From a virus: a DNA stretch of 24,225 bases. How positions within the stretch are numbered: the stretch's first letter is position 1; the number at the start of each line of letters is the position of its first letter. The translations under genes were made by a program, and so were the position numbers. The stretch covers positions 1 through 24,225 of the IMG/VR virus record IMGVR_UViG_3300036781_000818; one strand, written 5' to 3'. The notes beneath the pieces are model-generated. The model searched no databases, had not been told where the DNA came from, and saw only the letters and a list, made by a program, of their open reading frames with translations. Positions 2,865-23,778 of the stretch are shown here, piece by piece.

Positions 2865-5800
2865 GCGTGGCCCCCGTACCCTTGCACGAAGTAATCGATG
2901 GAGCCGCCCGCCACGGGCGCGCCTGTGGCGTCGCGGTGCTCGATCTTGAAGTGATCGCGGTCGCTCTCGATGAGGACGATGTTGCCGCCCGCCGAAAGGT
3001 CCTGCCGCGCGGTGAGCTGCACGGTCGGCGTGGCGGCGAAGCCGTGCGCATAGACGACGATCAGGTGGCCCGTGCCATCGAGCGCGGCGTCGTTGCCGCT
3101 GATCGAGCGCGTCGGTATCTCGACGTGCACCTCGGCCTGCATCATGCGCAGCGTCGTCGCGAGATCGTAGACCGCGCCGACCAGCCGCCACTCGAAGGCG
3201 CGGCCGGTGATCAGCGTCGACTTGAGCGGCGTCCAATCGCGGTACTCGACGGCATCCTGACTGACGCGCATCTCGATGTGGGCATCCCACTGATCCGAGG
3301 TGTTGCTCGCCAGCGGCTTGGCAGAGGCCAGCGGCACCCAAGTGACCATCGCGCCGGGCACGCCCGTCGCCAGTGGGTCGGCGCTCGCCAGCGGCACCCA
3401 ATCCGCCATCACGGTGCCGGTGAACGAGCCGTGCCCCTCGAGGAGCGCGACAATCGACACGTTGCTGACGAGCCCGATGTCGAGGTTCGCGGCGAAGCCG
3501 TACACGTCGAGCCGCGTCGGCGACTGGTTGACCGCCAGCGCCCGACCGCCGGGGAACACGCCAGCCGGGATGGGCTCGGGCTCGCGGGGCGGCGGCATCC
3601 ACAGCTCGTCGCCCACGCGATGCCAGTAGTTGCTGAGGTCGCCCGCCCAGTTGGGCTGCTCTGCCTCGACCGCGATCTGCACCGCCTCGCTAGCCTGCTG
3701 CAGCAGGATGGCGAGCGCGTAGTCGACGCTCTCCTGTCCGAGGCTGTCGATGGCCTTGACCATGAACGTGCCAGCGCGCGTCGGCGTGGTGACTTGCGTC
3801 GTGTTGCGGTCGACGCGGGCAATCGAGGTCGTCGCGTTTTCCCAGACCGCCGAGCCATCGGTGCGCGGCGACCACTTCACCCAATACATCACCACGTCGA
3901 TGTCGGGCGACGCGACCCACGTCAGCGTGGTCGTCGTGCCCTGCGGCGTGATGTAGAGCGCGCCGGGCGCGGCGGGCTTCGCGGTCAGCCCAATCGGCGT
4001 GAAGTTGTACGTGATCGGCTGCGCGCGCCGACCGAGATTGTCGAAGCCGGTCAGCGTGGCGACCCACTGACCCTGCCGCATCAGCGGCACGTCCTGCGCG
4101 ATGCCGATCACCTGCGCATAGCGGCGATAGTCGGCGGCCGGGCCGCTGAGCTCCAGCATGTAGTTGCGCACGCGCGGGTCGGGCGACGCCTGCCACGACA
4201 TGACGACGCCGAATTGCGGCCAGCCCGAGCCGTCGAGGTAGATGTATTCGTTGTGTGTAAGGTCGCTCGGAGACTGCAGCGGACCGGTCGGGATCAGCGA
4301 AAACGGCGGCGGCGGGATCAGCACGCCGTTGTCGACGTAGTCGCATTTCTCCTCGTGGTGCTCGGTCGCGACGATCTCGTAGCTCCCCTTGCCGCGATCC
4401 GTGATGCCCGCGATGCGCCAGTGCGTCGGCTCGACCGACGCGCTCGACGCCATCCAGTTGCAGCCCGCATCCATGCCCGGCTGCTTGCCGACCACAGTCA
4501 CCTGATTGTCGGGCAGCACGGCCTGGACGTGGCACGCGATCACGCGCGGCGTCTCGCCTTCGGCGGCGTTGCCCACGGTGACGTAGATCGTCCACGCGGC
4601 CGGGCTCGCCGCCATCTCGGTGGGGAAGCTGTCGAGCGTCAGCGTGTCGGTGCCGTCGTCGGCGAGCAGTCGCCCGGCAAGGCGCGCCCCGACGCGGCTC
4701 GGGTCGCTGATGGCGACGATCTCGCCCGGTCGCAGATCGGCATTTTCGAGGCCGACGCGGAAGGTGACGACCTCAGTCTCGAATTGGTTGGTGTAGACGA
4801 GCCAGCGACCGAAGCGGATCGCCTGACCGCGCACCGTGCAGCCGAAGGCGGTCTGCTGCGTCTCGCGATAGCCCTGCTTGGCGATCAACGCGGTGTCCTG
4901 CACCAGCTCGACGGTCGCGTTGTACTCGTCGCTCGGGTCGTTCCACGTCACCGCCGCAGCGGTCCAGCGCGAGCGATAGTCCGCGCCCTGATAGTCGAAG
5001 ATGCCGCTTTCGACATCGGCCGGGCCGAACAGCCGCGTCGGCGGACCCATGCGGCGATCCTGCACGAGGAACACCGTGCCGTTGCTCCAGTAGAGCAGCG
5101 CCAGCATCGACGAGGCCACAGCGTTGAGGACGGTGTAGGCGTCCTGCCGGGTGTTGATGACGCAGTTGCACAGCCAGCGGGGCTGCAGGCCGCCGAGCCC
5201 GTCAGGCACCAGCTCGTCGTTGGCGACGGCCGTCTCGTAAAAGCTCCACTTGTCGACCGCCTGCACGTCGAGGAAGCGGCCTAGGCCCCAGCGTTCGTTG
5301 GTGAGCAGGCCGTACAGCACCCACGCCGGGTTGTTCGTCCACGCCTGCTGGAAGGTGCCGTCCCAATCGCCGCTATAGGTCCGAGCGCGCGGATCGTAGT
5401 TGCTTGGGATGTCGAGCAGCAGCCCGTCGAGCAGATAGCCGCGCTGCGGCGGCGACGGGAAATTCTCGGCGTCGATGGTCATCGCCGCCACGGCGGTGTC
5501 GTCGTAGCTGATCGTGCCGTCCGTGATCTCGACGTAGCTGGACCAGAAGATGTCGTTTTGGGTTTGCGGCCCGTGCTCGGGATCGACGCGGCTCATGCGC
5601 ATCTGGATCGAGCCGGTCGTGTACGGCAGCTGCACGCGGACGGCGCGCTCATACGGCGACATCGTCTTGCCGCTGATCTGCTCGGTGACGACGTTGAACC
5701 ACGGGCCGCCGTCGACCGAGAGGTCGAACGTGTACGTCACGCTGGCGTTGGTTACATCGCCCTGATCGGTCTGCCCGTACAGGCCGTTGAGCCGCACGAT

Positions 5801-6259
5801 GTAGCGCACCGCCGACAGCGGCACGTTGAGCGCGCGCACGCTGTACTGCCCGGTATGCAGCTGCACCCCGACCGAGAACGGAGCCTCGCTCATGGGGTAG
5901 CCGGGGATCGGGTCTTGGCTCGGGTAGCCCTGCCGGAAGTAGGCTTCCTTGATGTTGAATTGCGGGTTGCCCGCGCTGTCCATTGCGGGCGTGCCGTCGA
6001 GGAACAGGCCCTGCAGCGGCGAGATCGGCGCGCTGCTCGCACCGTAGATCGGCCCCTCGCTCAGCACCTCGAGGAGACGCACCGTCGCCATGCTGCGCAG
6101 CGTGTTGGGCGCGATCTGTGGCTGGTGCTGGCTGCTCGACCCGCCACCGCCGCCCTTGCCCCCGCCCTTGGCCGCGACCCTCGTCGCTCTCGGATCGGGC
6201 ACCGAGTAGACGCGCACGCCCGCCTCGTCGCGACGACGACGGATCAGGGAAACGGCCAC
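2861..6259 (-). CDS. J: Host specificity protein J (tail tip)
   Basis: This 1132-aa protein has the size and position of lambda gpJ, the central tail-tip protein that contacts the receptor. The start is a GTG at 6259 with a perfect GGAGGT five bases upstream; that Shine-Dalgarno lies inside the glycine codons at the end of gene I, and the genes overlap by 16 bases. A Gly/Lys/Ser linker (about 30-45) precedes TVRLLEVLSEGPIYG, the usual start of the conserved J core. FN3-like repeats occupy roughly 640-830, including SLIPTGPLQSPSDLT and PAAPGALYITPQG. A short tandem repeat WVPLASA lies near 952-983. The C-terminus is beta-rich and probably variable. Confidence 0.92.
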   Translation of the reverse strand: MAVSLIRRRRDEAGVRVYSVPDPRATRVAAKGGGKGGGGGSSSQHQPQIAPNTLRSMATVRLLEVLSEGPIYGASSAPISPLQGLFLDGTPAMDSAGNPQFNIKEAYFRQGYPSQDPIPGYPMSEAPFSVGVQLHTGQYSVRALNVPLSAVRYIVRLNGLYGQTDQGDVTNASVTYTFDLSVDGGPWFNVVTEQISGKTMSPYERAVRVQLPYTTGSIQMRMSRVDPEHGPQTQNDIFWSSYVEITDGTISYDDTAVAAMTIDAENFPSPPQRGYLLDGLLLDIPSNYDPRARTYSGDWDGTFQQAWTNNPAWVLYGLLTNERWGLGRFLDVQAVDKWSFYETAVANDELVPDGLGGLQPRWLCNCVINTRQDAYTVLNAVASSMLALLYWSNGTVFLVQDRRMGPPTRLFGPADVESGIFDYQGADYRSRWTAAAVTWNDPSDEYNATVELVQDTALIAKQGYRETQQTAFGCTVRGQAIRFGRWLVYTNQFETEVVTFRVGLENADLRPGEIVAISDPSRVGARLAGRLLADDGTDTLTLDSFPTEMAASPAAWTIYVTVGNAAEGETPRVIACHVQAVLPDNQVTVVGKQPGMDAGCNWMASSASVEPTHWRIAGITDRGKGSYEIVATEHHEEKCDYVDNGVLIPPPPFSLIPTGPLQSPSDLTHNEYIYLDGSGWPQFGVVMSWQASPDPRVRNYMLELSGPAADYRRYAQVIGIAQDVPLMRQGQWVATLTGFDNLGRRAQPITYNFTPIGLTAKPAAPGALYITPQGTTTTLTWVASPDIDVVMYWVKWSPRTDGSAVWENATTSIARVDRNTTQVTTPTRAGTFMVKAIDSLGQESVDYALAILLQQASEAVQIAVEAEQPNWAGDLSNYWHRVGDELWMPPPREPEPIPAGVFPGGRALAVNQSPTRLDVYGFAANLDIGLVSNVSIVALLEGHGSFTGTVMADWVPLASADPLATGVPGAMVTWVPLASAKPLASNTSDQWDAHIEMRVSQDAVEYRDWTPLKSTLITGRAFEWRLVGAVYDLATTLRMMQAEVHVEIPTRSISGNDAALDGTGHLIVVYAHGFAATPTVQLTARQDLSAGGNIVLIESDRDHFKIEHRDATGAPVAGGSIDYFVQGYGGHA

Positions 6260-6912
6260 TTGCCACCTCCGCCGCTGCCGGGCGTCTCGCCGGTCGGGAT
6301 GTCCTCGGCGTTCAAGCCCGCGCCGATGACGACGGAGCCGGTTAGATGGGTGCCGAACACCAGCGGCACGGGGCCGCCCTGCTGGCTGTTGTTGCTCACG
6401 CCGTTGAACAGAAACGACGGCCGGTCGTCGGGCCGAGCTCGATCGGTCGCCGCGTCCGAGCTGGGCGGCTGCGTGAGCAGCGAGCTGATACCGCCCAGGA
6501 TCATGGACGCACCCAGCAGCACGACCGAGCCGTACGACATGCCGAGCGCGAGAGGCGTGGCGAACGCCGCCGCCAGGCCACCCGTCGCGACGATGGCCGC
6601 GCCGATCAGCACCACGCCGACGATGATCCCGGCGATGCCCTTGCCGTCGCCACCACCGCGCGGGCGCGTGGCGGGCACGAAATGGATGGGCTGGCTGCCC
6701 GCGTTCATGAGCAGCAGCTCGGGGTCGATGGCGTTGCGCAGTCGCGGCGGGCCGACGACGACGCGCCAGTTGCCTTCGCGGATCACCGAGCGCAGGCCGG
6801 GCCGTAGCGTGATCAGCGCGCGCACCGCCTCGGCCGGGCTCGACACGTCGATGCGGAAGTGGGTGCCGTACAGCCGCCCGGCAGCGCCGTAGAGGTAGAC
6901 ATCGCGGATCAT
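6244..6912 (-). CDS. I: Tail assembly protein I
   Basis: The 222-aa protein starts at an ATG at 6912, overlapping the K stop as ATGA, and sits between K and J exactly as lambda gene I does. The first 80 residues hold the conserved domain, with RDVYLYGAAGRLYGTHFRID, an EAVRAL helix and a PELLLMNAG segment. Residues 92-147 are strongly hydrophobic and Gly/Ala-rich (GIIVGVVLIGAAIVATGG), the membrane-like region typical of the family. The C-terminus ends in a Gly-rich stretch. Family members are needed for tail-tip assembly; the mechanism is not established. Confidence 0.88.
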   Translation of the reverse strand: MIRDVYLYGAAGRLYGTHFRIDVSSPAEAVRALITLRPGLRSVIREGNWRVVVGPPRLRNAIDPELLLMNAGSQPIHFVPATRPRGGGDGKGIAGIIVGVVLIGAAIVATGGLAAAFATPLALGMSYGSVVLLGASMILGGISSLLTQPPSSDAATDRARPDDRPSFLFNGVSNNSQQGGPVPLVFGTHLTGSVVIGAGLNAEDIPTGETPGSGGGGKWPFP

Positions 6913-7655
6913 GACCGGCGCACGGCGACCGAGATGTGCCGCACGTAACGGCTGCGCGGCACGAGCACCGAGAGGCGTGTCGGGTCGACCGGCTTGGTCC
7001 CGGCCGGGTGATGCAGGATCAGCTGGTCGTCCCAGACGACCGCACCGTGCATCGGCACTTCGTAGTTGAAGCGCATCAGCAGCCCATCGCCGGGGCGCGT
7101 CGCCTGGCTCGGGTCGATCTGGTGGAAACCCGCCTTCTCGAAGTTGTCGCGATAGAGATCGAGGCCGCGCGCCTTGCTCCACCAATCCCAATCGCGCGGG
7201 TAGTCGGGCAGATCGATGCCCTTGTCGGCGTAGTAGTCGCGGATCAGGGAGTAGCAGTCATGAACGCCGTGCCGAAAGCCGCGCCCGATCAGCGGCGCAC
7301 GCGGCAGCGCATCGCCCCACCAGAACAGGTCGTAGAGGGGCCAGCACATGACGACGAACGGGGTGCCGAGTTGCTGCTGGTAGCGCATGTCGCTGGCGCT
7401 CGGGCAGCCGAAGCCGTCCGGGTGGCTGTGAAAGAACACGTCCGCCATGGCGACGCGCAGGAGATCGTCGTCGCTCAGCGCGACATCCGCGCCCGGCTGG
7501 GTGCTGAGGTTGTCGAGCCGCACATACTCGCCACCCTCGACGATGCCCGCCGCCTCGTGCGGGTAGGCGTCGGCGGTGTGCTGCTTGGCCGCCTCGTGGA
7601 TCGCATCCGTCCAGGCCAAGGGGCGCGCCGGGCTGGTCGGGTTGGGTGCCTGCAT
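6909..7655 (-). CDS. K: Tail tip protein K: JAMM peptidase plus NlpC/P60 hydrolase
   Basis: The 248-aa protein has two domains. The N-terminal domain (about 12-110) has a JAMM/MPN metal site: Glu34 in PHEAAG, then His76-x-His78-x7-Ser86-x2-Asp89. The C-terminal domain (about 120-245) is NlpC/P60-like, with Cys134 in HDCYSLIRDYY, His203 in MHGAVVW and a further His pair at 215-216. This layout matches lambda gpK, a tail-tip component whose NlpC/P60 half is thought to cut peptidoglycan during entry. The start at 7655 shares one base with the L stop (TGATG). All expected catalytic residues are present, so both domains may be active. Confidence 0.92.
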   Translation of the reverse strand: MQAPNPTSPARPLAWTDAIHEAAKQHTADAYPHEAAGIVEGGEYVRLDNLSTQPGADVALSDDDLLRVAMADVFFHSHPDGFGCPSASDMRYQQQLGTPFVVMCWPLYDLFWWGDALPRAPLIGRGFRHGVHDCYSLIRDYYADKGIDLPDYPRDWDWWSKARGLDLYRDNFEKAGFHQIDPSQATRPGDGLLMRFNYEVPMHGAVVWDDQLILHHPAGTKPVDPTRLSVLVPRSRYVRHISVAVRRS

Positions 7656-8338
7656 CACTTCACCTTTCCGACGCCGGGGAAGAAGCGCGCAGGCAGCGGC
7701 TGCTGCCCGAAGCGCGCCAGACAGCCGTTGAGGTTGCGCGAGCACTGATCGTGCGCCGCGTCGGTCGGCTGGTTGCTGGTGTCGAAGTTGGCCGCGCCCG
7801 TGTAGGGACAGGTCGCCTTGCTGTAGTCGAACGCGCCGGCGACCGGGTCCCACGAGCGATAGAGATGGGTGCAAACGTCGCGCAGGATTTGGCGGCGCGG
7901 CAGCTGCGTGCCCTCGACATCCATGCGCGACGCCAGCTTGAAGGCGATGGCGACGGCGGTGTGGCTGGTCTTTTGCGCCACCACGAATTTGTCGCGCGTG
8001 ATGTAGGCGGCGGGATCGGGCGTGTCGCCGTCGTCGAGGAAGCGCCGCAGCGTCAGCAGGCGGACCAGCTCAGCGCCGACCAGCCCCTTGTAGCTGTCGA
8101 GCAGCAGATTGCCCGCGCCGTAGAGGTTGCTGATCGTCACGCTCGGCGTCGGGAACGCGCCGCGCGTCGTCATCTCGAAGCCCTGCGCGTCCATCGGCAG
8201 CGGCGAGTAGAGCTGGCCGCCCCACATGATCTCGTGCTCGGCGTCGCTGGCGCTGGTGAAGTAGAACCACGGTCCGCCGAGGCTGGTCGTGTCGAGCTGC
8301 CACAGCGTGATCAGGCCCTCGGTCGTGAGACTGGTCAT
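7655..8338 (-). CDS. L: Minor tail protein L, predicted iron-sulfur protein
   Basis: The 227-aa product follows M with an ATGA overlap, matching lambda gene order M-L-K-I-J. The N-terminal half (about 10-140) carries the beta-rich L domain with LWQLDTTSLGG and GFEMTTRGAFPTP. The C-terminal half has four cysteines at 155, 177, 199 and 206; the last three are spaced 22 and 7 residues apart, close to the spacing in lambda gpL. Lambda gpL is known to bind a [4Fe-4S] cluster through four C-terminal cysteines. The same chemistry here is inferred from that conservation. The protein belongs to the tail-tip complex. Confidence 0.88.
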   Translation of the reverse strand: MTSLTTEGLITLWQLDTTSLGGPWFYFTSASDAEHEIMWGGQLYSPLPMDAQGFEMTTRGAFPTPSVTISNLYGAGNLLLDSYKGLVGAELVRLLTLRRFLDDGDTPDPAAYITRDKFVVAQKTSHTAVAIAFKLASRMDVEGTQLPRRQILRDVCTHLYRSWDPVAGAFDYSKATCPYTGAANFDTSNQPTDAAHDQCSRNLNGCLARFGQQPLPARFFPGVGKVK

Positions 8339-8724
8339 GAGCCGACGTCGCCGGGCTGCGGATTGAAGCTACGCGTCAGCGTCACGCTCAGCGTGCCGAC
8401 GATGCCGCTCGCGCGGTTCCTCTCGCTGATCTGCGCCGTCCACTCGTCGGCAGTGACGAGCACGTACCCCGTGCCATCGGGCGGCGTCATCCAGAAGCCG
8501 CGCGCGGCATTGGCCTTCAGGAAGTCGTCGCGCTCCTCCAGCTCAGCCAGCGACGTGAACGGGAATGACAGCGACCAGCTGGGGCGCGCCGGGTTGAGCC
8601 CGCGCGTTGAGCGATGCTTGTAGCCGTCGCCGAACGCGACCTCGTCGACCGACAGCTTGGTGTCTCGCGACGCGCCCGGCATCGCGCACCACGGCCAGTA
8701 AGGCTGCGGGACCGGATCGGCCAT
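8335..8724 (-). CDS. M: Minor tail protein M
   Basis: The 129-aa protein starts at an ATG at 8724 with GAGGTGA close upstream, eight bases after the tape-measure stop. It shows the M-family pattern: VDEVAFGDGYKHRSTRGLN near residue 26, then NPARPSWSLSFPF and LKANAARGFWMTPPDG, which is the region linking a distal-tail fold to the tip. Its length is close to that of lambda gpM (109 aa). It lies between tape measure and L as expected and should sit where the tail tube meets the tip complex. Confidence 0.85.
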   Translation of the reverse strand: MADPVPQPYWPWCAMPGASRDTKLSVDEVAFGDGYKHRSTRGLNPARPSWSLSFPFTSLAELEERDDFLKANAARGFWMTPPDGTGYVLVTADEWTAQISERNRASGIVGTLSVTLTRSFNPQPGDVGS

Positions 8725-14576: not shown

Positions 14577-14829
14577 CCTCGCCCCCGTCACCCTTGAGAT
14601 GCCCGGCCGCCGTGAGCGCCTCGACGACGACGCTATGGAACAGCGGCCGAAGATCGCCAGCGAAGTCGCCGCCGACGAACAGCTCGCCATTCGGCGTCAC
14701 CTTCCACAGCGGCGTGCGCAGCTCCAGCATCCTCGCGTAGACATCGGCGCGCAGCTTGTCGTAACCGGCGTTGACCGCGTCCGCGACGATGTCTGCGATC
14801 AGCTGTTGATCTTCGCGCGAAATGCTCAT
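14560..14829 (-). CDS. Hypothetical protein between portal and connector
   Basis: The 89-aa product starts at an ATG at 14829 overlapping the portal stop as ATGA. The first half is helical (EDQQLIADIVADAVNAGYDK), a short strand region follows (PLWKVTPNGELFVGGDF), and the C-terminus is acidic (GDGGEDDDGS). I do not recognise the family. Its position suggests a small virion or head-assembly factor. No catalytic or membrane feature is visible. Confidence 0.7.
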   Translation of the reverse strand: MSISREDQQLIADIVADAVNAGYDKLRADVYARMLELRTPLWKVTPNGELFVGGDFAGDLRPLFHSVVVEALTAAGHLKGDGGEDDDGS

Positions 14830-16202
14830 GCGGCCCTCCGTAGGCGTTCGCGCACGAGCTGCCGCAGCAGCGCGGCGTCGAGGCTCTCCTGCGTGGGATT
14901 GGTCGGGTTCGGGTCGGATGGCGTCGGCGCGGGCGCGGCACCCCGCGTGCCCGCGTCGCTGAGTGGGACGTACTGCATCTGGATGTGCGGCTCGTCGCCG
15001 CCCTCGACCGGGGCGAGCCCTTCCTGCGCGCGCACTTCGTTGATCGTCGACCACGCCGACTGCAGCGCCTTCTGGTAGGCGTCATACCGGACATCGATCT
15101 CGGCGCGCAGCAGCGCCGACAGGTCGAATTTCAGCTCGTAGTTGACGGGGAATTCAAAGGCGCGGGCGAATCGCTGCTCCAGCGCCTCGATGTGGTACGA
15201 CAGGCAGCCCGACAGATAGGCGCGGCCGAGCTGCTCGCTGTTGCGATACGTGCTCTTGCTCGTGTCGCCCAGCATGAACGGCGGCACGCGGAACACGCGC
15301 GCGACATCCTCGACGCTCCAGCGCAGCTGCTCGATCAGCTGCGCATCCTGCGCGGTGATCGTGAGCGGCTCCCACTTGAGCCCTTCCGGCAGCACGGCTG
15401 TCTTGCCGTAGCGCTGGCCCTGGTAATTGCTGTCCCAATCTTCCTTGAGCCGGTCGGCGGTCTCCTTGCTGATGCGACCCGGCGCGGTCAGCACGCCCGA
15501 GGGGCGCGAGGCGTTGCCGAAGAAGCTCTGCGAGTTGCGCAGGATGTGGAGCCCGACTGCGCTGGACGCGGCGGCGGCGAAGATCGGCGTGACCCCGACC
15601 AGTGGGAAGGCCGGCAGCAGCGGCAGGCGGTGATGGATGACGAACCGCTCCGGCACCATCGCGCCCGACCGCAGCCCGGCGAGCTGGTTCTCGCCGACTC
15701 GATAGAACACCGTCGCCGTCTCGGGCTCGACATACGCCTGCGTGGTACGCGGATCGAGCACATGCATCTCGCTGATCTCGCCGCGGGCATTGCGTCTCGC
15801 GAAAGCGTAACCGTTGCCCTGCAGCAGCACGCTCAGCAGATAGAGCTGCATGAAGTCGGCGGCGGTCTGGTACTCGTTTGGCTCGCGCATGAGTTGGGCG
15901 TAGTAGTCGCGCCGCTGCAGCTCGCGAGCGCCGCTCGCCATGTCGATCTTGAAGACCTGCAGGGGCAGCTTGGCGATGTCGCCGCTGATGATCGTGGTGC
16001 AGGCGTACACCGCCGAGAAGGCGACCAGGTCGGGCGCGGGCATCGCCCCGGCGTTGAGGTTCATCTGCCACGCGCCTAGCGGGCCGCGATCACCGTTGCC
16101 ACTGGGCGGCCAGTACCAGCTCGTCCCGCCAGGCCAAGCGGGCTGCAGCGCCCGCAATGCGGCGCGCCCCGCTGCACCGATGCGCGAGATCAGCGAGGGC
16201 AT
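14826..16202 (-). CDS. Portal protein, HK97 family
   Basis: The 458-aa length is typical of the family. The start is an ATG at 16202 with GGGAAGGG about ten bases upstream. After a basic, hydrophobic N-terminus, residues 57-85 read DLVAFSAVYACTTIISGDIA and KLPLQVF, the hallmark HK97-portal opening. FMQLYLLSVLLQGNGYAFAR and the clip/stem part with YRNSEQLGRAYLSGCLSYHI follow, then helical wing residues and a Pro/Thr-rich disordered tail. It forms the dodecameric vertex through which DNA passes. Unlike HK97 it does not lie between terL and protease but after the capsid gene, separated by a plus-strand cassette. Confidence 0.93.
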   Translation of the reverse strand: MPSLISRIGAAGRAALRALQPAWPGGTSWYWPPSGNGDRGPLGAWQMNLNAGAMPAPDLVAFSAVYACTTIISGDIAKLPLQVFKIDMASGARELQRRDYYAQLMREPNEYQTAADFMQLYLLSVLLQGNGYAFARRNARGEISEMHVLDPRTTQAYVEPETATVFYRVGENQLAGLRSGAMVPERFVIHHRLPLLPAFPLVGVTPIFAAAASSAVGLHILRNSQSFFGNASRPSGVLTAPGRISKETADRLKEDWDSNYQGQRYGKTAVLPEGLKWEPLTITAQDAQLIEQLRWSVEDVARVFRVPPFMLGDTSKSTYRNSEQLGRAYLSGCLSYHIEALEQRFARAFEFPVNYELKFDLSALLRAEIDVRYDAYQKALQSAWSTINEVRAQEGLAPVEGGDEPHIQMQYVPLSDAGTRGAAPAPTPSDPNPTNPTQESLDAALLRQLVRERLRRAA

Positions 16203-16580: not shown

Positions 16581-17156
16581 ATGACTAACACAACCAAGAC
16601 TACTGCCGACGATCTCGCCATCCCGGCGTTCCTCAAACGCGACGCGCAGAAGAACGTGGCGGCGGCGAAAAGGCCGACGACTGCAGCGACCACGAAGCAC
16701 GAGACGAAGTCGATCCCGCAAGCTATGACCCCCGAGGCCGTCAAAGCCGTCGTGGCCTCGCGAGCGAAAGCCGTCAAAGCAGCCAAGACCGCGAAGCTCG
16801 CGACGACAGCGGCAGCGAAGCCCAAGGCAGAGCCGAACGCGCCGGCGAAGAAGGCAGCGCCCAAGACTGCTGGCAAAAAGGCAGCAGCGCCGAAGCCCGC
16901 GAAGGCCAAGGCAGAGAAGAAGCCGAAGGACCTCGACCCGAAGGTCGTTGAGTTGATCGCGCTACTCAAGACGAAGAAAGGGGCTACGAACGACGAAGCG
17001 GCAAAGGCGCTCAAGCTCAAGGCGAAGGGTACCGCGCCGCATCAGTCGGCGTCCGCTCAAGTGCGAGCGATGATCCGCGACAAGGTTCGCAGGCTGCACG
17101 AAGTGAAGGCAGACCATGACAGCGAGCGCGGCGGTGTAGTGTTCCGCGTCGCCTAG
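16581..17156 (+). CDS. H1-like Lys/Ala-rich protein with DUF3489-like C-terminal domain
   Basis: The 191-aa product starts at an ATG at 16581 with AAGGAG six bases upstream. A short N-terminus (DDLAIPAFLKR) leads into a long Ala/Lys/Pro/Thr-rich arm (about 50-116, such as KKAAPKTAGKKAAAPKPAKA) like the tails of H1-type and AlgP-type proteins. Residues 118-191 form a compact domain: LDPKVVELIALLKTKKGATN and DEAAKALKL, then a basic helix and SERGGVVFRVA. This resembles the winged-helix-like DUF3489 domain common in rhizobial genomes. DNA binding is inferred from composition and fold. It might compact DNA or regulate cargo or late genes. It has its own promoter region and terminator, and opposes the late operon. 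Confidence 0.75.
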   Translation: MTNTTKTTADDLAIPAFLKRDAQKNVAAAKRPTTAATTKHETKSIPQAMTPEAVKAVVASRAKAVKAAKTAKLATTAAAKPKAEPNAPAKKAAPKTAGKKAAAPKPAKAKAEKKPKDLDPKVVELIALLKTKKGATNDEAAKALKLKAKGTAPHQSASAQVRAMIRDKVRRLHEVKADHDSERGGVVFRVA

Positions 17157-17175
17157 AGCACATTGACGATCCAAG

Positions 17176-17200
17176 CCCCCGCTTCGGCGGGGGTTTTTTT
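17176..17200 (+). terminator. Rho-independent terminator
   Basis: A perfect seven-base stem CCCCCGC/GCGGGGG closes on a UUCG tetraloop and is followed directly by seven Ts. It sits 20 bases after the H1-like stop. It works only for plus-strand transcripts, since no T run follows on the other strand, so minus-strand late transcription is not obviously stopped here. Confidence 0.92.
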
Positions 17201-17357
17201 GGTTTGGCGCCCGAAGTAGGGCGGCGTCTTCGGGATCAAGATCATGCCGTCCGTGCGCGGCCGCTTTGCACCAGTCTCGTCCGTCATGTCGCTATTCGCT
17301 TTTCCGTGCGAGGCGGCGCGGCCGGCTTCGACCTGAGCTGGAACTCTTGTCTCCGCT

Positions 17358-17373
17358 CTTAGATGTGTCTAAG
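17358..17373. repeat. Perfect palindrome CTTAGA-TGTG-TCTAAG
   Basis: Perfect six-base arms with a four-base loop lie about 75 bases before the transporter start, in the 245-base stretch between the terminator and the transporter, where I see no gene. The right arm runs into AAGGAG. It may be an operator or a leader hairpin controlling the transporter. Confidence 0.4.
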
Positions 17374-17445
17374 GAGAACCAGGGGTGCCCTTGCATTAGG
17401 CAAGCGGCAGGAAATGCGTCGGTCGGGCCGCCACGCGGAGTCGGC

Positions 17446-18630
17446 GTGCCCCCTGTGAGCTTTCCTTCGGTCCCTGCCGAGTATTTCATCTTCGCGGCCA
17501 CTCTGATCGCGATCGGCATCTTTCATCGTCATACCCTGCCGGCCGCTGTCTCCGGCCTCCTGACCGTCATCGTTTACCGGTTCGTGATGCTCGGCGGGGC
17601 CGAATGGCTGCACTGGATCGGCTCGCTCGCCGCTCATGAGTGGTCCACCCTCACCAACATCATTTTGGTGCTGCTCGGGTTCGCGGTGATGGCCAACCAC
17701 TTCGAGCGCAGCAAGCTTGCAGAAGCGTTGCCGCACGTGCTGCCGAAGAACTGGACCGGCGGGATGTTGCTGCTCGGCCTCGTGTTCGTGATGTCGATCT
17801 TCCTGGACAACATCGCCGCCGCCATCATCGGCGGGATCATGGCGCGGCACTACTACCACGGGCGGGTCGGGGTCGGCTTCCTCGCGGCCATCGTTGCGGC
17901 CGCCAATGCCGGCGGTGCTGGAAGCGTCGTAGGCGATACCACCACGACGATGATGTGGATCACCGGAATCCCTGCCCTCGAGGTCTTGCCGGCCTTCGTG
18001 GCGGCGCTGGTCGCCTTCGCCGTGTTCGGGCCACTGGCCTCGGTCCTACAAGGCCCGCCACGACGGCAGGCAACTACTGTCGCGCCTCCAACGATCGATT
18101 GGGCACGAACAGCGGTTGTTCTGGTGCTGCTCGGCGCGATCATCGCCGTCAACTCGTTCGGCAACGCCTTGTCACCCGCTCTCTACAAGACCGGGCCCTG
18201 GCTCGGCATTGGCCTGTGGATCGCCATCGCAATGACGGGCCTGTGGCGGAAGGTCGACTGGCGCGCGCCGCGGCGGGCAGTGCCCGGAACTTTGTTCCTG
18301 GCCTCTCTCGTGGCACTCGCGGCAACGATGCCCGTTGACGCGCTGCCCGCGGCCTCATGGCAGACGGTATTGGGCCTTGGCTTCCTCTCGGCCGTCTTCG
18401 ACAACATCCCGCTGACGGCCCTGGCCCTCAAGCAGGGCGGCTACGACTGGGCGCTGCTGGCGTACGCTGTCGGATTCGGGGGATCCATGATGTGGTTCGG
18501 GTCGTCGGCCGGCGTCGCCCTGTCGAACGAGTTTTCCCAGATCCGATCGGTCATCGCCTGGGCCCGCGCCGGGTGGTTCATCCCCGTGGCCTACGTCGCG
18601 GGCTTCTTCGCCCTGCTCTCTGTCAGATGA
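17446..18630 (+). CDS. NhaD-like ion transporter (putative Na+/H+ antiporter / citrate-transporter-type permease)
   Basis: The 394-aa membrane protein belongs to the ion-transporter superfamily that includes NhaD, ArsB and CitM. I chose a GTG at 17446 because GGAG lies five bases upstream and the mature sequence begins shortly after; a GTG at 17455 is an alternative, and the open frame extends further back without family-like sequence. About ten hydrophobic segments are visible. Two inverted-repeat signatures stand out: SIFLDNIAAAIIGG (117-130) and SAVFDNIPLTALAL (315-328), with SVVGDTTTTMMWITG (160-174) and GGSMMWFGSSAGVALSNEF (345-363). GDTTTTM and the paired DN motifs are typical of NhaD-type antiporters. 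Ion specificity cannot be proven. It lies on the opposite strand between capsid and portal, so it is cargo. Host-like and intact. Confidence 0.85.
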   Translation: MPPVSFPSVPAEYFIFAATLIAIGIFHRHTLPAAVSGLLTVIVYRFVMLGGAEWLHWIGSLAAHEWSTLTNIILVLLGFAVMANHFERSKLAEALPHVLPKNWTGGMLLLGLVFVMSIFLDNIAAAIIGGIMARHYYHGRVGVGFLAAIVAAANAGGAGSVVGDTTTTMMWITGIPALEVLPAFVAALVAFAVFGPLASVLQGPPRRQATTVAPPTIDWARTAVVLVLLGAIIAVNSFGNALSPALYKTGPWLGIGLWIAIAMTGLWRKVDWRAPRRAVPGTLFLASLVALAATMPVDALPAASWQTVLGLGFLSAVFDNIPLTALALKQGGYDWALLAYAVGFGGSMMWFGSSAGVALSNEFSQIRSVIAWARAGWFIPVAYVAGFFALLSVR

Positions 18631-18716
18631 AGTCCGACCTCATCCTTTTCGTAATCGTTACGTCCTTCCTTGCAGCGGGCCTGGTCATCCCCTTGCATGC
18701 ACGACATTTCCTTTGA
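18627..18716 (+). CDS. 29-aa single-helix membrane peptide coupled to the transporter
   Basis: An ATG at 18627 overlaps the transporter stop as ATGA and opens a 29-codon frame. The peptide MKSDLILFVIVTSFLAAGLV continues IPLHARHFL: a short polar start, one clean hydrophobic helix (about 5-21), and a basic tail. Small helices coupled this way often serve as subunits or regulators of the transporter before them (KdpF is a known case). A role here is inference. No homologue is recognised. Confidence 0.45.
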   Translation: MKSDLILFVIVTSFLAAGLVIPLHARHFL

Positions 18717-18801
18717 ATCGGTGGATGGAGCACTCCTCGCCGGATGATGGAGTTGCGCGCGCCGGCCAGGGATGTGCACGACGCGCGCTCCTCGTTGCCG
18801 A

Positions 18802-20172
18802 TCAGGCCGCCTGCCGGACACGCTGTTGCGAGGCGGGCGTGGACGGTACCGGAGCACCCGTAATCTCCTGCACGGCAGGGAGGCGGCGCATCATCCAGTA
18901 CGCAAAGCGTTCAGCCTTGATGCCCAGCAGGTTCTGCTGCCACAGCGACACCAGCGGCGTCGGCGGCGTCGCTGGGGCCTCGTCCATTTGCAGCGACGCC
19001 TCGTGCGAGGTGTCGATCATCGTTTCACCATCGTCGGCGACCATCAGCTCGAACTGCTCCAACAGGATGATCACCCCGGCTTTGACGTTGCCCGATACGA
19101 TGACCGGGATCCCCATCAGCGTGGGGGTGGAGCCCAGCACCCCCGGCGCACCGCCGGCAGACATAGACGGGAAGGCGAAGATGTCTTGAGCGGTGCGCAG
19201 TGTGGCGAGGTAAGTCGCTACCCCATAGCCCATCAGCCACACCGGACGGCGCAACGGGATGTTGGCTCCCGTCATGTTGAGGATCGCCGTGCTGAGGTCG
19301 CTCGTAATGTTGGCGACCGCGCCTCCGGAGCTGGGGATTTTCGTCGCCGCATTGGTGATCGAGGCGGGGCGAACACCCGCAATAGCGGTCACCTGGTCGT
19401 CAAGCAGCTGATTGTCCATGAATTCCGCGATGGCCGCGATTAGGTCGTCGCGCACGAGCTGCTCGGCACTCGGGGTCGAGAACCGCGCCAGCTCCTGCGT
19501 GATGACGACGATCACGGCCATCTTGGTCCAGGGCAGCGTGATCTGGTCGAACGCCAGCTTGCTGACCGGCTTTGAGCCGCCCTCACCGACCCAGCCCGCC
19601 GTCGCCCCGGCCGTCTGGCGCGGGATCTTGATGGCGAACGGCACGCGGCGATAGCCGTTGAGGCGGCCCATCACCGTCTCGGCACGCAGGAGCTCGATGA
19701 ATTCGCCGACCATCACCTGATAGTTGACGAGCGGCGCCGCCCACGCGGGGTCGGTGGTCGTGCCCGCCGCAACGGCGGCACGCAAGATCGCGCTGACCTC
19801 GGGTGTCTCGTTGTCCCATGCCTTCGCCATCTCGGCCGCCAGCATGAGATTGCCTTTGGCTCGTGCGAGCGCGCCGACATAGCGCGTGAACGCCTGCCCC
19901 TTGAACGCGACGAACTTCGGCTTGGGATCGAGGATCGCGGTCGGTGTCGGCGCGGGCTGCGCCAGGTGCGCGAGTTGGCGCTCGGCCTCGAGCAGCTTCT
20001 CCAGCTGCCCATCGATGTCCCGCACTTCGCCCTGATCCTTGTCGAAAGCCTTCTGTTCGTCCTCGGTGAACAGCCGGTTGTCGTTGGCTGCGGTGTCGCT
20101 CAGCGCCTGCATGGCGTCGAGATGCGCGTTTCGCTTCTTCTGGAGCGCGTCGATCTGCTTGCGAATAGACAT
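18802..20172 (-). CDS. Major capsid protein, HK97 fold
   Basis: The 456-aa protein starts at an ATG at 20172 with GGGGAG seven bases upstream, 15 bases after the protease. Residues 1-70 form a charged coiled coil (IRKQIDALQKKRNAHLDAMQ), the scaffold-like delta domain of HK97 that the protease removes, followed by a Pro-rich linker (72-85). The shell domain includes IPRQTAGATAGWVGEGGSKP and the E-loop/P-domain region KLAFDQITLPWTKMAVIVVI. RPVWLMGYGVATYLATLR and TPTLMGIPVIVSG follow, a recognised HK97 coat pattern. The C-terminus (about 430-456) is extended and Pro/Gln-rich. Confidence 0.94.
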   Translation of the reverse strand: MSIRKQIDALQKKRNAHLDAMQALSDTAANDNRLFTEDEQKAFDKDQGEVRDIDGQLEKLLEAERQLAHLAQPAPTPTAILDPKPKFVAFKGQAFTRYVGALARAKGNLMLAAEMAKAWDNETPEVSAILRAAVAAGTTTDPAWAAPLVNYQVMVGEFIELLRAETVMGRLNGYRRVPFAIKIPRQTAGATAGWVGEGGSKPVSKLAFDQITLPWTKMAVIVVITQELARFSTPSAEQLVRDDLIAAIAEFMDNQLLDDQVTAIAGVRPASITNAATKIPSSGGAVANITSDLSTAILNMTGANIPLRRPVWLMGYGVATYLATLRTAQDIFAFPSMSAGGAPGVLGSTPTLMGIPVIVSGNVKAGVIILLEQFELMVADDGETMIDTSHEASLQMDEAPATPPTPLVSLWQQNLLGIKAERFAYWMMRRLPAVQEITGAPVPSTPASQQRVRQAA

Positions 20173-20187
20173 GACTAAACTCCCCGG

Positions 20188-20823
20188 TCACGGGGTGGGG
20201 GCCGCCTGATGCCTGCCGAGGCGGGAAAGAGTGATGGTGCGGCTGCGCGCTGCGGCTGCGACCTGGGCGGCAGTCCCATCGTCGAACAGGCAGCGCATCT
20301 CAGCGGGCGTGAGCCCGAATGACTTGGCGAGCTGCAGCGCGTTAGGGTTCGCGGGAACCGGCACGACGCTCAGCTCCAACAGCTCTTGGGCGATGTATTC
20401 GAAGCCCGTGAGGTGCTTGTCGGCATTAAAGATCGGGTTGGGCGGCGCCAGCGGCAGGAAGCCGACCGAGACCGCGTTGAGCGCGCCATGCTCGATCAGC
20501 GACCAGACGCTGTCGGCGAAGCTGGTCACGCCCTCGGGCAGAAACTCGGCGTGCGCGATCAGCTGCGTGCCTTCGACGGCGATCGGATCGACCTTGCCGA
20601 CCGGCAGCGAGTCCGACTGGTGTCCGAACAGCAGCACGGGATTTTTGCGATAGTTGCCGAGCTGCCACCCGCTGGCGCGAATAATGTCGCCGTAGCGGTC
20701 GACCGTCTCGTCGCTGGCGACGAAGCGGGCGCGTCGGGTGCCGCCATCACCGCTCGCGCGTGCCAGAATGGCGGCGCGCCTCTGCATCACGCCGACTTGC
20801 GGCGCGGTACGGGTAGCGGGCAT
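20188..20823 (-). CDS. Prohead protease, HK97 family (peptidase S78)
   Basis: The 211-aa protein starts at an ATG at 20823 with GGAGG five bases upstream. The core shows the family signature: TVDRYGDIIRASGWQL (40-55), NPVLLFGHQSDSLPVG (61-76) with the catalytic His68, ALNAVSVGFLPL (114-125) with the catalytic Ser119, and ELLELSVVPVPANPNA (147-162). It cleaves the delta domain of the capsid protein encoded next and then itself, allowing head maturation. The C-terminal Thr/Arg/Ala-rich tail is likely its own cleavage region. Confidence 0.94.
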   Translation of the reverse strand: MPATRTAPQVGVMQRRAAILARASGDGGTRRARFVASDETVDRYGDIIRASGWQLGNYRKNPVLLFGHQSDSLPVGKVDPIAVEGTQLIAHAEFLPEGVTSFADSVWSLIEHGALNAVSVGFLPLAPPNPIFNADKHLTGFEYIAQELLELSVVPVPANPNALQLAKSFGLTPAEMRCLFDDGTAAQVAAAARSRTITLSRLGRHQAAPTP

Positions 20824-21131: not shown

Positions 21132-21255
21132 ACGCTTGCCTTGCAGTCTCACTGCTCAGTAGCTTCCGGTCATTCGGAGTGCGGGAGCGCAACCCGCCAA
21201 CGTGACCGCTGGTGGAGGAAAGGCGGCGACATCAACCAATGCGACGAGGAGCAAG

Positions 21256-21627
21256 ATGACTATGCAGGCGTTGCTTAGCGTAGCGCGGAGGCGTCACTGT
21301 CTCGCCGAACAGGACGGGGCGCTAATGCCGTTCTTCCGAGTTGAGCAACACCACGAAGGGTTCGTCCGCATGCTGATGGGACTTGGCATGTCACTCGCCG
21401 CCGTCCCTGTGCAACACCTCGGCGAGCAGCGGCTCTACCTCGGCGTGCGCTGTCACAATGCGGTGCAGGCCAAGCGCCATACCATCGAAATCGTACGCGA
21501 GCTGCTGATCGTTCGGCCCGAACTGCTGCCGGGCCTCGATCTCGGCACTTGGAAGGCACGCAAACTGAGCAATCGCCTGTGCCTGTTCTGGACAGGCGTA
21601 GAGATCGAGCGCGTGCTGCTACACTAG
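21256..21627 (+). CDS. Unknown 123-aa protein, opposite to the late genes
   Basis: The start chosen is the ATG at 21256 because AGGAG lies five bases upstream; in-frame ATGs further back lack a signal. The protein is a mix of helical and strand segments: MPFFRVEQHHEGFVRMLMGL, then LAAVPVQHLGEQRLYLGVRC, IEIVRELLIVRPELLPGLDL and a C-terminal RLCLFWTGVEIERVLLH. Composition is that of a real globular protein, unlike the Arg-rich antisense frame. No family comes to mind. It converges on terL with a four-base overlap of stop codons and has its own motif-bearing upstream region, so it looks like a moron. Confidence 0.65.
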   Translation: MTMQALLSVARRRHCLAEQDGALMPFFRVEQHHEGFVRMLMGLGMSLAAVPVQHLGEQRLYLGVRCHNAVQAKRHTIEIVRELLIVRPELLPGLDLGTWKARKLSNRLCLFWTGVEIERVLLH

Positions 21628-23351
21628 ACAAAGAACATGTCGGGCTCGCCGCGCTGGGTTACGGTCATTCGCCGACCGAGGGCCATGATTAGTGCGGTGA
21701 TCCCATCGATTCGGCCGGTGCTGTGCGCCTTGTTTGGCATCTCGTTGAGGTTCTTGTCGCGCTGTACCTTGAGATTGGACGCCATGACCGTGAGCACGGG
21801 GTTGTCGCCGTGGTCGAGCTTGCGGTCGGCGATCAGCGCCTGCAGCTCCTTCGTCGGCGCCGTGTAACTCCGCATGCCCTGCACGAATTCGACCGCCTCG
21901 ACGCCTGCCTCGTTCAGCTCGACCGCGAGCTGCGTGGCGTTCCAGGGGTCGTAGGCCATGGACTCGATCTCGCAGCGCTTGGCGTCGGCGATGATCGCCG
22001 CCTTGATTTCGGCGTGGTCGATGACGTTGCCTGGGGTCGCCTCCATCCATCCTTCCTCGACCCAGCGGCGATAGGGCATACGATCACGATCGGCGCGCTC
22101 CTCGATGGTGTCGGCGGGCATCCAGAACCGGCAAGCGACCCGCATGATGCCGCCCTCGTCGGGCTCGTAGAGCCGCACGAAGGCGCTGATGTCGATCTTG
22201 CTCGACAGATCCAGCCCGGCGAAGCAACGGCGGCTTTCGAGCTTGTCGGGGTCGAACCGCCCGCGCGAATTCTTCGCCCATTGCGCCATGTCGATGACGC
22301 GGTCCATGGCCGACGAACGAACGTTGAGCCGCAGCCGCTTGAAGGCGACCAGCGCGCCGGCGCTCTTGGCTGCCTTGCGCGCCTGCCGCTCGAGATCGTC
22401 GAGCTTGACCGAGATGCCGAGGTTGGGATTGGCCTTCGCCCAGGCCACGGGATCGTCCCACCGGTCGCCCTTGTCGATGGTCGAGATGAAGGCGAACACG
22501 CTGTCATCCTCGACGGCGCCCTCCAGCACCTTGATGGCGTAGTCGTTCTCCGCCGTGTAGACGCTCTCCGGGTCGTCGTCGCCCGCCGTGGTGATGATCC
22601 ACAAGATCGGCTGACGGCGCGAGCCCAGCGCGGTGTCGAGCACGTCGAGCAGCGCGCGCGTCTTGTGGCGGTGCAGCTCGTCGACCAGCACGCAATGGGG
22701 ATTGAGCCCGTCGAGCGTGCGGTCGTCGCTGCTCAGCGGCTCGAATTTCGAGGCGGTCGCGTCGATGGAAAGATTGAGCTTGTAGCGCGCAATCGTCGCC
22801 GCCAGGTCGGGCGAGCTGGCGACCATGCGCTTGGCTTCGTCGAAGATGATCCGCGCCTGATCGCGCTTGGTCGCGGCGGCGTAGATTTCTGCGCCGGGCT
22901 CGCCGTCGCACGCCAGCATGTCGAGCCCGACGCCCGCCAGCTTGGTGCTCTTGCCGTTCTTGCGCGGCAGCTCCTCGTAGACGTAGCGGAACCGGCGGGT
23001 GCCATCTGGGCGCTTCCAGCCGAACACCGAGCCGATCACGAACTTCTGCCACGGGCTCAGCTCGACAGGCTGGCGCGCCCATTCCCCCTTCGAGTGCCGC
23101 AGAAACGTCGAGTAGAAGCCGATCCGGTGCTGCGCGGCGGGCGCATCGAATACGAGCCCGCGCCGCTTGCCCTTGGCGAGGTCGCGCAGATGCCGCCGGC
23201 AGGCGAGTTTGACGAAGCGGCAGGCGATGATCTCGCCGGCGATCACCGAGCGGGCATAGGCGGTCGTCTCGTCAATGGAGCTTGTCGGGCTTGCGGTCGA
23301 GGTACGCCGCGAGCCGCGCGTTGTTCCGCGGCTGGCCGATGCTCGGGACAT
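21624..23351 (-). CDS. terL: Terminase large subunit (HK97-type, Terminase_1)
   Basis: The chosen start is the ATG at 23351 (575 aa), with GGAG ten bases upstream, overlapping terS by 80 bases. The first 27 residues (Arg/Ser/Thr-rich) are not family-like, so a later non-ATG start close to the terS stop is possible; conserved sequence begins with ETTAYARSVIAGEI. Walker A is RKNGKST (130-136), Walker B is VLVDELH (221-227), and TTAG (254-257) may be the coupling motif. The nuclease domain has GLDLSS (Asp380), AYDPWNA (Asp467) and GRIDGITAL (Asp549). It is the ATP-driven motor and nuclease that packages DNA, together with terS upstream. Confidence 0.94.
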   Translation of the reverse strand: MSRASASRGTTRGSRRTSTASPTSSIDETTAYARSVIAGEIIACRFVKLACRRHLRDLAKGKRRGLVFDAPAAQHRIGFYSTFLRHSKGEWARQPVELSPWQKFVIGSVFGWKRPDGTRRFRYVYEELPRKNGKSTKLAGVGLDMLACDGEPGAEIYAAATKRDQARIIFDEAKRMVASSPDLAATIARYKLNLSIDATASKFEPLSSDDRTLDGLNPHCVLVDELHRHKTRALLDVLDTALGSRRQPILWIITTAGDDDPESVYTAENDYAIKVLEGAVEDDSVFAFISTIDKGDRWDDPVAWAKANPNLGISVKLDDLERQARKAAKSAGALVAFKRLRLNVRSSAMDRVIDMAQWAKNSRGRFDPDKLESRRCFAGLDLSSKIDISAFVRLYEPDEGGIMRVACRFWMPADTIEERADRDRMPYRRWVEEGWMEATPGNVIDHAEIKAAIIADAKRCEIESMAYDPWNATQLAVELNEAGVEAVEFVQGMRSYTAPTKELQALIADRKLDHGDNPVLTVMASNLKVQRDKNLNEMPNKAHSTGRIDGITALIMALGRRMTVTQRGEPDMFFV

Positions 23352-23778
23352 GGGGGGCAAACTCCGGTGCCATGCGGCCCAGGCCCGCGCGAGCGGCCGG
23401 GGAGAAGCCGAGCTCCGACGCGCAGCGCAGCATGATATGGGCCTGCCGGTTCATCACGCCGAGGTAGGGATTGGGCATCACGCCGCCATCGCGCGTGCTG
23501 ACGACTTGCCCCAGCTCCCGCACCTTGAGGGAGGCGCGGGCATGCTCGACCGCCGCGACCACCCAGATCACCAGCACCTCACGGTCCGTCCCGGTCAGCA
23601 GTCCGGGCGGCGCATGCTCGGCGCTGTAGTGCCACTGCTCGCGCTGCTGATCGTCGAACCACGCAGGCGGTGCCCAGATGTCGCCGACGCCCTCGGGCTC
23701 GGCAGCTTCGATGGGTCGCCTGCCGGGCTTTCCGTGCAGCTTGTGCAGTGCCGCAGGAATTGTTTTCTTGGTGCGCAT
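23272..23778 (-). CDS. terS: Terminase small subunit, P27 family
   Basis: The start at 23778 gives 168 aa beginning [20 protein letters not shown], which is the usual P27 opening (basic stretch, Leu-x-x-Leu-HG-x-PGxRP). GDIWAPPAWFDDQQREQW, LTGTDREVLVIWVVAAVEHA and PNPYLGVMNRQAHIMLRCAS follow. A GTG at 23787 is an alternative start. It recognises the phage genome for packaging and works with the terL encoded next. Its ATG overlaps the ATG of the plus-strand ASCH-like gene within the shared tetranucleotide CATG, so the two starts are head to head. Confidence 0.88.
   Translation of the reverse strand: MRTKKTIPAALHKLHGKPGRRPIEAAEPEGVGDIWAPPAWFDDQQREQWHYSAEHAPPGLLTGTDREVLVIWVVAAVEHARASLKVRELGQVVSTRDGGVMPNPYLGVMNRQAHIMLRCASELGFSPAARAGLGRMAPEFAPHVPSIGQPRNNARLAAYLDRKPDKLH

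Follow-up and report, generated by a model that had tools for sequence, protein, structure and literature searches.

What is a multi-helix transporter gene doing among the head genes of a siphovirus, and what controls it? The question arises from the window, i.e., the whole stretch of DNA analysed, which is an IMG/VR virus record in its entirety (24,225 bp) and probably a fragment of a phage genome. The minus strand carries a siphovirus late region. It comprises the terminase small and large subunits (large subunit, TerL, at 21624-23360), the prohead protease (20188-20823), the HK97-type major capsid protein (18802-20172; PF05065/TIGR01554) and an HK97-type portal protein (14826-16202; PF04860, E 4e-89), together with connector genes, tail genes, the tape measure and a J-like tip protein. 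Between the capsid and portal genes, which flank the slot, and antiparallel to both lies the transporter gene (17446-18630, plus strand). The reading favored here, which is considered reasonably probable, is that a host-derived nhaA-I riboswitch and an NhaD-like transporter form a moron of a probably temperate siphovirus and would protect the lysogen against Li+/Na+. It builds on the gene order, an empty site in related phages, an intact protein with its motifs, the predicted fold, a riboswitch family match and foreign codons.

The open reading frame encodes 394 amino acids, starts with GTG, is free of stops and frameshifts, and is preceded by a Shine-Dalgarno-like GGAG at 17438-17441. The translated sequence displays two DN pairs, D121-N122 and D319-N320, and a GDTTTTM motif at residues 163-169. 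The first-pass annotation had described an intact, host-type multi-helix transporter with paired DN and GDTTTTM motifs on the opposite strand within the head genes, and the reading frame, coordinates, motifs and flanking genes have all been verified. It recognised the transporter in the slot but missed a second plus-strand gene, a terminator and the nhaA-I riboswitch. That the frame is a real gene and not a chance one is confirmed, since relatives can be aligned over the full length, near-invariant columns are kept and the fold is predicted with confidence. Compared with 93 relatives, 8 of 111 near-invariant columns are changed, mostly conservatively. The AlphaFold model (pLDDT 88.6, pTM 0.86) has helix breaks at 120-121 and 318-319, and its Foldseek matches in the PDB are INDY, Pho90, NaS/NaS1, DiT and TRAP (E 5e-7 to 1e-3, TM 0.41-0.66). 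The modelled fold is of the DASS/INDY type, its helices interrupted at the DN sites, and points to the IT superfamily. Viral structural matches to the model were not found in BFVD at E 0.001, nor did the protein match Pfam or PHROG. A small open reading frame 3′ of the gene (18627-18716, 29 amino acids) is missing from all 16 host relatives listed.

Two NCBIfam NhaD models match the protein, at E 1e-20 and 1e-11, but the scores miss the cut-offs (TIGR00775, 73.6 versus 577.1 bits; NF038006, 44.6 versus 80). The TIGR00775 cut-off is strict, as gammaproteobacterial NhaD-type proteins themselves reach only ~350-477 bits on this model, yet the transporter is still far below. All 39 family members scanned match both NhaD models, the only NCBIfam families that they hit; the CitMHS Pfam model is matched by 10 of the 39. 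D121-N122, N154, D164, T166 and D319-N320 are invariant in a joint alignment with NhaD-type proteins, which were taken from gammaproteobacterial genomes, and the DN pairs thus occur together with the NAGG...GDxTT signature. A profile comparison with these proteins gives a match probability of 97.3% at 26% identity. The EWDT sequence of NhaD-type proteins, however, aligns to D271-W272-R273-A274 of the transporter, where the Asp-Thr pair is absent. An Asp-Thr pair is critical to exchange in characterised NhaD proteins, Asp344-Thr345 in Vibrio cholerae and Asp369-Thr370 in Halomonas elongata (PMC1552076), and by our own assignment from the alignment the EWDT residues would be this published pair. 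As the DN, NAGG-GDxTT, DNIP and GGS-GSxAG motifs are held in common and the EWDT Asp-Thr pair is missing, the protein is classed by sequence as NhaD-like, a sister group of NhaD within the IT superfamily and not NhaD itself. The earlier label of an NhaD-like permease inside the head genes stands to that extent; NhaD proper does not, with cut-offs missed by far and the pair absent. The transporter is presumably a cation/H+ exchanger. A role in Na+ or pH stress, also proposed earlier, is retained as plausible, for Na+ (or Li+) and pH, and the riboswitch described below independently points to alkali cations.

Relatives of the transporter are abundant in bacterial chromosomes. GTDB genomes contain at least 576 matching stretches, and hundreds of chromosomal proteins align over the full length with 49-58% identity, the range for the family as a whole being 48-58%; the best (~58%) are from Caulobacteraceae. 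In the tree the window protein is sister to a Caulobacteraceae-containing clade (98/90 support) on a branch so long (1.46) that its position is unsure. The long branch may reflect relaxed constraint or an unsampled donor. Against a family profile built from the other 93 members, the protein has the lowest score of 94 (524.8 bits), and its C-terminus is shorter than in most relatives. Relatives were not found in phages or plasmids by tblastn, nor in IMG/VR viral contigs by single-sequence and alignment-motif searches, and the insert DNA has no match in plasmids. The host neighbors of the relatives are not conserved and provide no functional clue; a UspA-like gene, whose identity is read from sequence, is near relatives in 5 of 80 loci.

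Upstream of the transporter gene is an aptamer of the nhaA-I (Li+-I / Na+-II) class at 17383-17435 on the plus strand. The match to RF03057 covers the full length of the model (1-55 of 55) with 47.2 bits against a gathering threshold of 37 (E 1.4e-7), and there is no other Rfam match at gathering threshold in the window. The 3′ end of the aptamer is 10 nt ahead of the GTG at 17446 with GGAG in between, which places the leader next to the ribosome binding site (RBS). The conserved GGGUGC, GCAGG and GGUCGGGCCGCC are kept. Unpaired bases and non-standard pairs weaken P1 and P2 of the aptamer, however, and the U that follows GCAGG is replaced by A. RNAs of this class are experimentally validated Li+ switches, with rare variants that answer Na+; control of RBS access has been proposed for most of them, and some precede nhaD genes (PMC9646797). 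The element was not found in the related phages searched. A short aptamer match in phage record MT838627, at E 0.1 over 46% of the query, was too weak to count.

Similar pairings exist in chromosomes. In an Acidobacteriota metagenome-assembled genome (L024), an nhaA-I RNA (53.4 bits) is followed by a short open reading frame that we read as membrane-peptide-like and then by a relative of the transporter. The P1 sequence differs between this RNA and that of the window, and the pairing is largely retained. In this host operon (noted at 7724-8001) the short peptide may cooperate with the transporter. In L104, whose genome shares its family with a Caulobacter MAG, an nhaA-II (Li+-II) RNA (1264-1504, 71.9 bits) is upstream of a chromosomal NhaD-like relative. 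A conserved-core search of up to 600 bases upstream detected a Li+ riboswitch in these 2 of 93 relatives only, and the pairing is therefore not general in the family.

ViennaRNA predicts an alternative hairpin at 17425-17451 on the plus strand (pair probabilities ~0.97) as a candidate OFF state. With the aptamer unformed, 17425-17434, the 3′ half of aptamer P2, pairs with 17440-17451, the end of the RBS plus the GTG; when the aptamer is enforced, the RBS end and the start codon are partly freed. Shuffled downstream sequence equals the start-codon pairing in 144 of 500 trials (29%), so the hairpin alone is not significant, and an RBS-covering structure is plausible but not proven.

The related phages reveal how the slot is normally occupied. 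The order protease-capsid-portal is normal among them, and the capsid and portal genes of Salmonella phage FSL SP-016 are likewise adjacent, so an abnormal capsid-portal order is ruled out. The closest relatives are L086, L087 and L089, with portal proteins 81-83% identical and TerL 93-96% identical in L087 and L089 (in L086 TerL is not covered). They display protease, capsid, an opposite-strand H1-like gene with its terminator, and portal, with the transporter absent, i.e., an empty site. In the window the corresponding gene (16581-17156, plus strand) encodes a Lys/Ala-rich protein of 191 amino acids with a DUF3489-like C-terminus, an older moron, followed by an intrinsic terminator (plus strand; 17173-17196, or 17173-17200 by its wider limits) that is conserved in the same three phages. 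DNA homology to the relatives ends at 17202, at the terminator end, and restarts at 18883-18911 inside the capsid gene. The inserted riboswitch-transporter cassette has outer limits of 17203-18800 and no DNA homology in related phages; the transporter is found in none of 116 related loci. Since related phages hold an empty site in the same gene order, the unit is a moron, a cargo cassette beside an existing one. Insertion between two genes that are adjacent in related phages is the moron definition (PMC4378225). The composition is also unlike that of the neighbors: the codon usage of the transporter lies outside the phage core range (G 93.4 versus a median of 46.3 and a maximum of 71.9 in 395 core windows), which fits a recent moron. 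Neither a sigma-70-type promoter upstream of the transporter nor a terminator between 18630 and 18802 was recognised, the one at 17173-17200 belonging to the upstream moron, and convincing direct repeats as a sign of transposition were not found at the insert ends.

The capsid-portal slot is a recombination-prone cargo site, in which the transporter is one unit more. An opposite-strand H1-like gene is present in 5 of 69 related loci that have both capsid and portal; the slot of L086 and L087 additionally has a small head gene, in L090 a different small opposite-strand gene follows the H1-like gene, and in L091 and L092 the capsid-portal gap is 147 bp. It had been assumed that auxiliary genes in phages usually sit at module edges. 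This is not supported by published descriptions of such genes (PMC4378225; PMC7067206) or by the five related contigs with another opposite-strand gene in the slot. A position antisense to lytic genes has been called characteristic of accessory loci (PMC7067206).

Several other features of these phages were observed. Opposite-strand DUF3489-like genes lie between capsid and portal in the window, L086, L087, L089, L090 and L143, and in several related phages the gene has a conserved upstream box (TTGACC...GCGACAAT) in addition to the terminator; its relative in L120 weakly matches PF11994 (E 0.006). The capsid gene of the window is mosaic after about residue 50: the first 50 residues are 94% identical to those of L087 and L089, and the remainder is nearer to the L082-L085 group. 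An open reading frame at 21202-21627, between TerL and the protease and on the strand opposite TerL, has a weak coding signal, no family match and a counterpart in L120 (12537-12977). In L120 (G006), called the closest relative where this gene was reported, a host-like Crp/Fnr-type regulator (5576-6283; PF00027, PF13545) is upstream of the terminase region and is possible cargo. L120 also encodes a protein with ABC/AAA-like ATPase and GNAT acetyltransferase parts (7535-8659), beside a ParB-N-like protein; this ATPase-GNAT protein precedes the terminase genes of related phages.

The phage is probably a temperate siphovirus, a reading made by analogy because one relative (G008) has an integrase (PF00589) and another (G007) a repressor-like gene. 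A lysogeny gene was not found within the 24,225-bp window. Searches for close prophages gave no portal match in 385 alphaproteobacterial genomes, and with a TerL query only distant TerL proteins in 299 Caulobacter-family and 342 Bradyrhizobium-family genomes, the best of them at most ~44% identical over part and ~40% over most of the protein.

A scheme for the function of the cassette can be proposed. It would have entered the slot on the opposite strand, immediately downstream of the older DUF3489-like moron, and in the lysogen, where the late operon is silent, this plus-strand unit would have transcription of its own. When the cation is scarce, the leader may fold such that the 3′ strand of aptamer P2 masks the RBS and start codon. 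A rise in Li+ (or Na+) would allow the aptamer to form and translation to start. The transporter would then move the cation out of the cell, probably exchanging it for H+ through an elevator mechanism, and the lysogen would be guarded against Li+/Na+ and alkaline stress. The promoter, the ligand, the translational switching, the transported ion, lysogenic expression and the benefit are parts that we infer; for a Li+/Na+ ON switch, export and lysogen protection the grounds are the class of the riboswitch, the family to which the protein belongs and the moron-like setting. Most likely the transporter lets lysogens expel Li+/Na+. The stronger form, that the prophage carries a complete alkali-cation circuit in which nhaA-I senses Li+/Na+ in the host and the NhaD-like exporter expels the cation, is judged to be evenly balanced between true and false.

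Other explanations have been weighed. As the evidence base for the insertion is one contig and neither junction, searched also by k-mer, was found in other viral contigs, the locus could be an assembly chimera in which a host riboswitch-transporter fragment was joined into a phage contig; the foreign codon usage and the lack of the transporter in all 116 related loci would be explained as well. This is unlikely. The sequence on either side belongs to one and the same syntenic phage, with the TerL and portal identities referring to the same relatives, so that two independent misjoins would be needed. Moreover, the insert follows directly on the conserved terminator of the older moron, stops short of the capsid stop codon and holds exactly one complete regulated gene, and the content of the slot varies among relatives too. 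Decidedly unlikely is a passenger gene, recently acquired or decaying and functionless for phage and host, in fact the least probable of the readings considered and hardly credible: the long branch, the lowest profile score and the short C-terminus are in its favor, but the frame has no stop or frameshift, the few changes at near-invariant residues are mostly conservative, and riboswitch, RBS and start codon are retained together.

Two further alternatives accept a functional gene. The transporter might act in the lytic phase, when it would sustain the proton/sodium motive force or the internal pH while virions are made, and the riboswitch would confine it to salt-stressed cells. Riboswitches are indeed known in lytic myophages, such as the glutamine riboswitch of Melnitz (PMC9004378). 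The orientation against the late genes and the position beside another opposite-strand moron agree with a gene that is expressed independently of the lytic programme (PMC7067206), and a relative has an integrase; a lytic role is accordingly rated as quite improbable. A transporter of another IT-superfamily substrate, e.g., an anion or carboxylate, may instead have been captured with its leader, the NhaD likeness being at superfamily level only. The missing Asp-Thr pair, the CitMHS matches and the nearest solved folds, which are anion/carboxylate carriers, favor this, but the exclusive match of all scanned members to the two NhaD models and the alkali-cation riboswitches ahead of three family members do not, and it is very improbable. 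The moron reading, with a regulated cation exporter expressed in the lysogen, is preferred.

Opposite-strand cargo of foreign composition between late genes, i.e., morons, is already known; the transporter cargo with its riboswitch is new. Neither the collections nor the literature searched yielded another phage cassette in which an alkali-cation riboswitch is coupled to an NhaD-like transporter; as far as these searches reach, both the Li+/Na+ riboswitch and the NhaD-like transporter would be the first of their kind on a phage. The word "phage" is absent from the main text of PMC9646797 and of the companion Na+ paper, PMC9337991, so the locus, if correctly read, provides a phage example for a riboswitch class whose two primary papers mention none. 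It would also mean that phages can transfer a stress-resistance transporter along with the ligand-sensing element that controls it as one small cassette, whose gene stays silent unless the cation is present, and that alkali-cation homeostasis joins the traits of lysogenic conversion. For the large NhaD-like family in hundreds of bacterial genomes, Li+/Na+ export would be a first functional clue, and the riboswitch makes the question of transporter substrate directly testable.

Among known systems, the NhaD antiporters (TC 2.A.62, IT superfamily; TIGR00775, NF038006) share with the window protein the DN pair, the predicted fold class and the motifs N-A-G-G...G-D-x-T-T-x-M-x-W, S-A-x-x-D-N-I-P and G-G-S...G-S-x-A-G-V-A over 328 aligned columns. 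The transporter differs in its 23-26% identity, its scores below the cut-offs, the lack of the EWDT Asp-Thr pair and of LRKSKPV near the N-terminus, and a shorter loop between the halves. The chromosomal NhaD-like family, mostly of proteobacteria, is closer, with full-length similarity at the identities given above, DN and GDTTTT motifs and a Li+ riboswitch upstream of two members; its members are chromosomal with a variable neighborhood, whereas the window copy is long-branched with a shorter C-terminal tail. The RNA resembles the published nhaA-I / Li+-I (variant Na+-II) RNAs of RF03057 (PMC9646797) in its full-length match and in adjoining the RBS of a cation-transporter-like gene, but it is phage-borne and its gene is NhaD-like, not nhaA. 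Phage-encoded riboswitches are described as rare, and the glutamine riboswitch of Melnitz and its relatives (PMC9004378), although also in a phage genome, is of another RNA class and ligand and is linked to tmRNA, not to a transporter. The cassette is comparable to the morons of temperate phages (PMC4378225; PMC7067206; PMC6814406) as a single opposite-strand gene of foreign composition between late genes, absent in close relatives; it differs from them in carrying a cation transporter under a predicted ligand-sensing riboswitch of its own.
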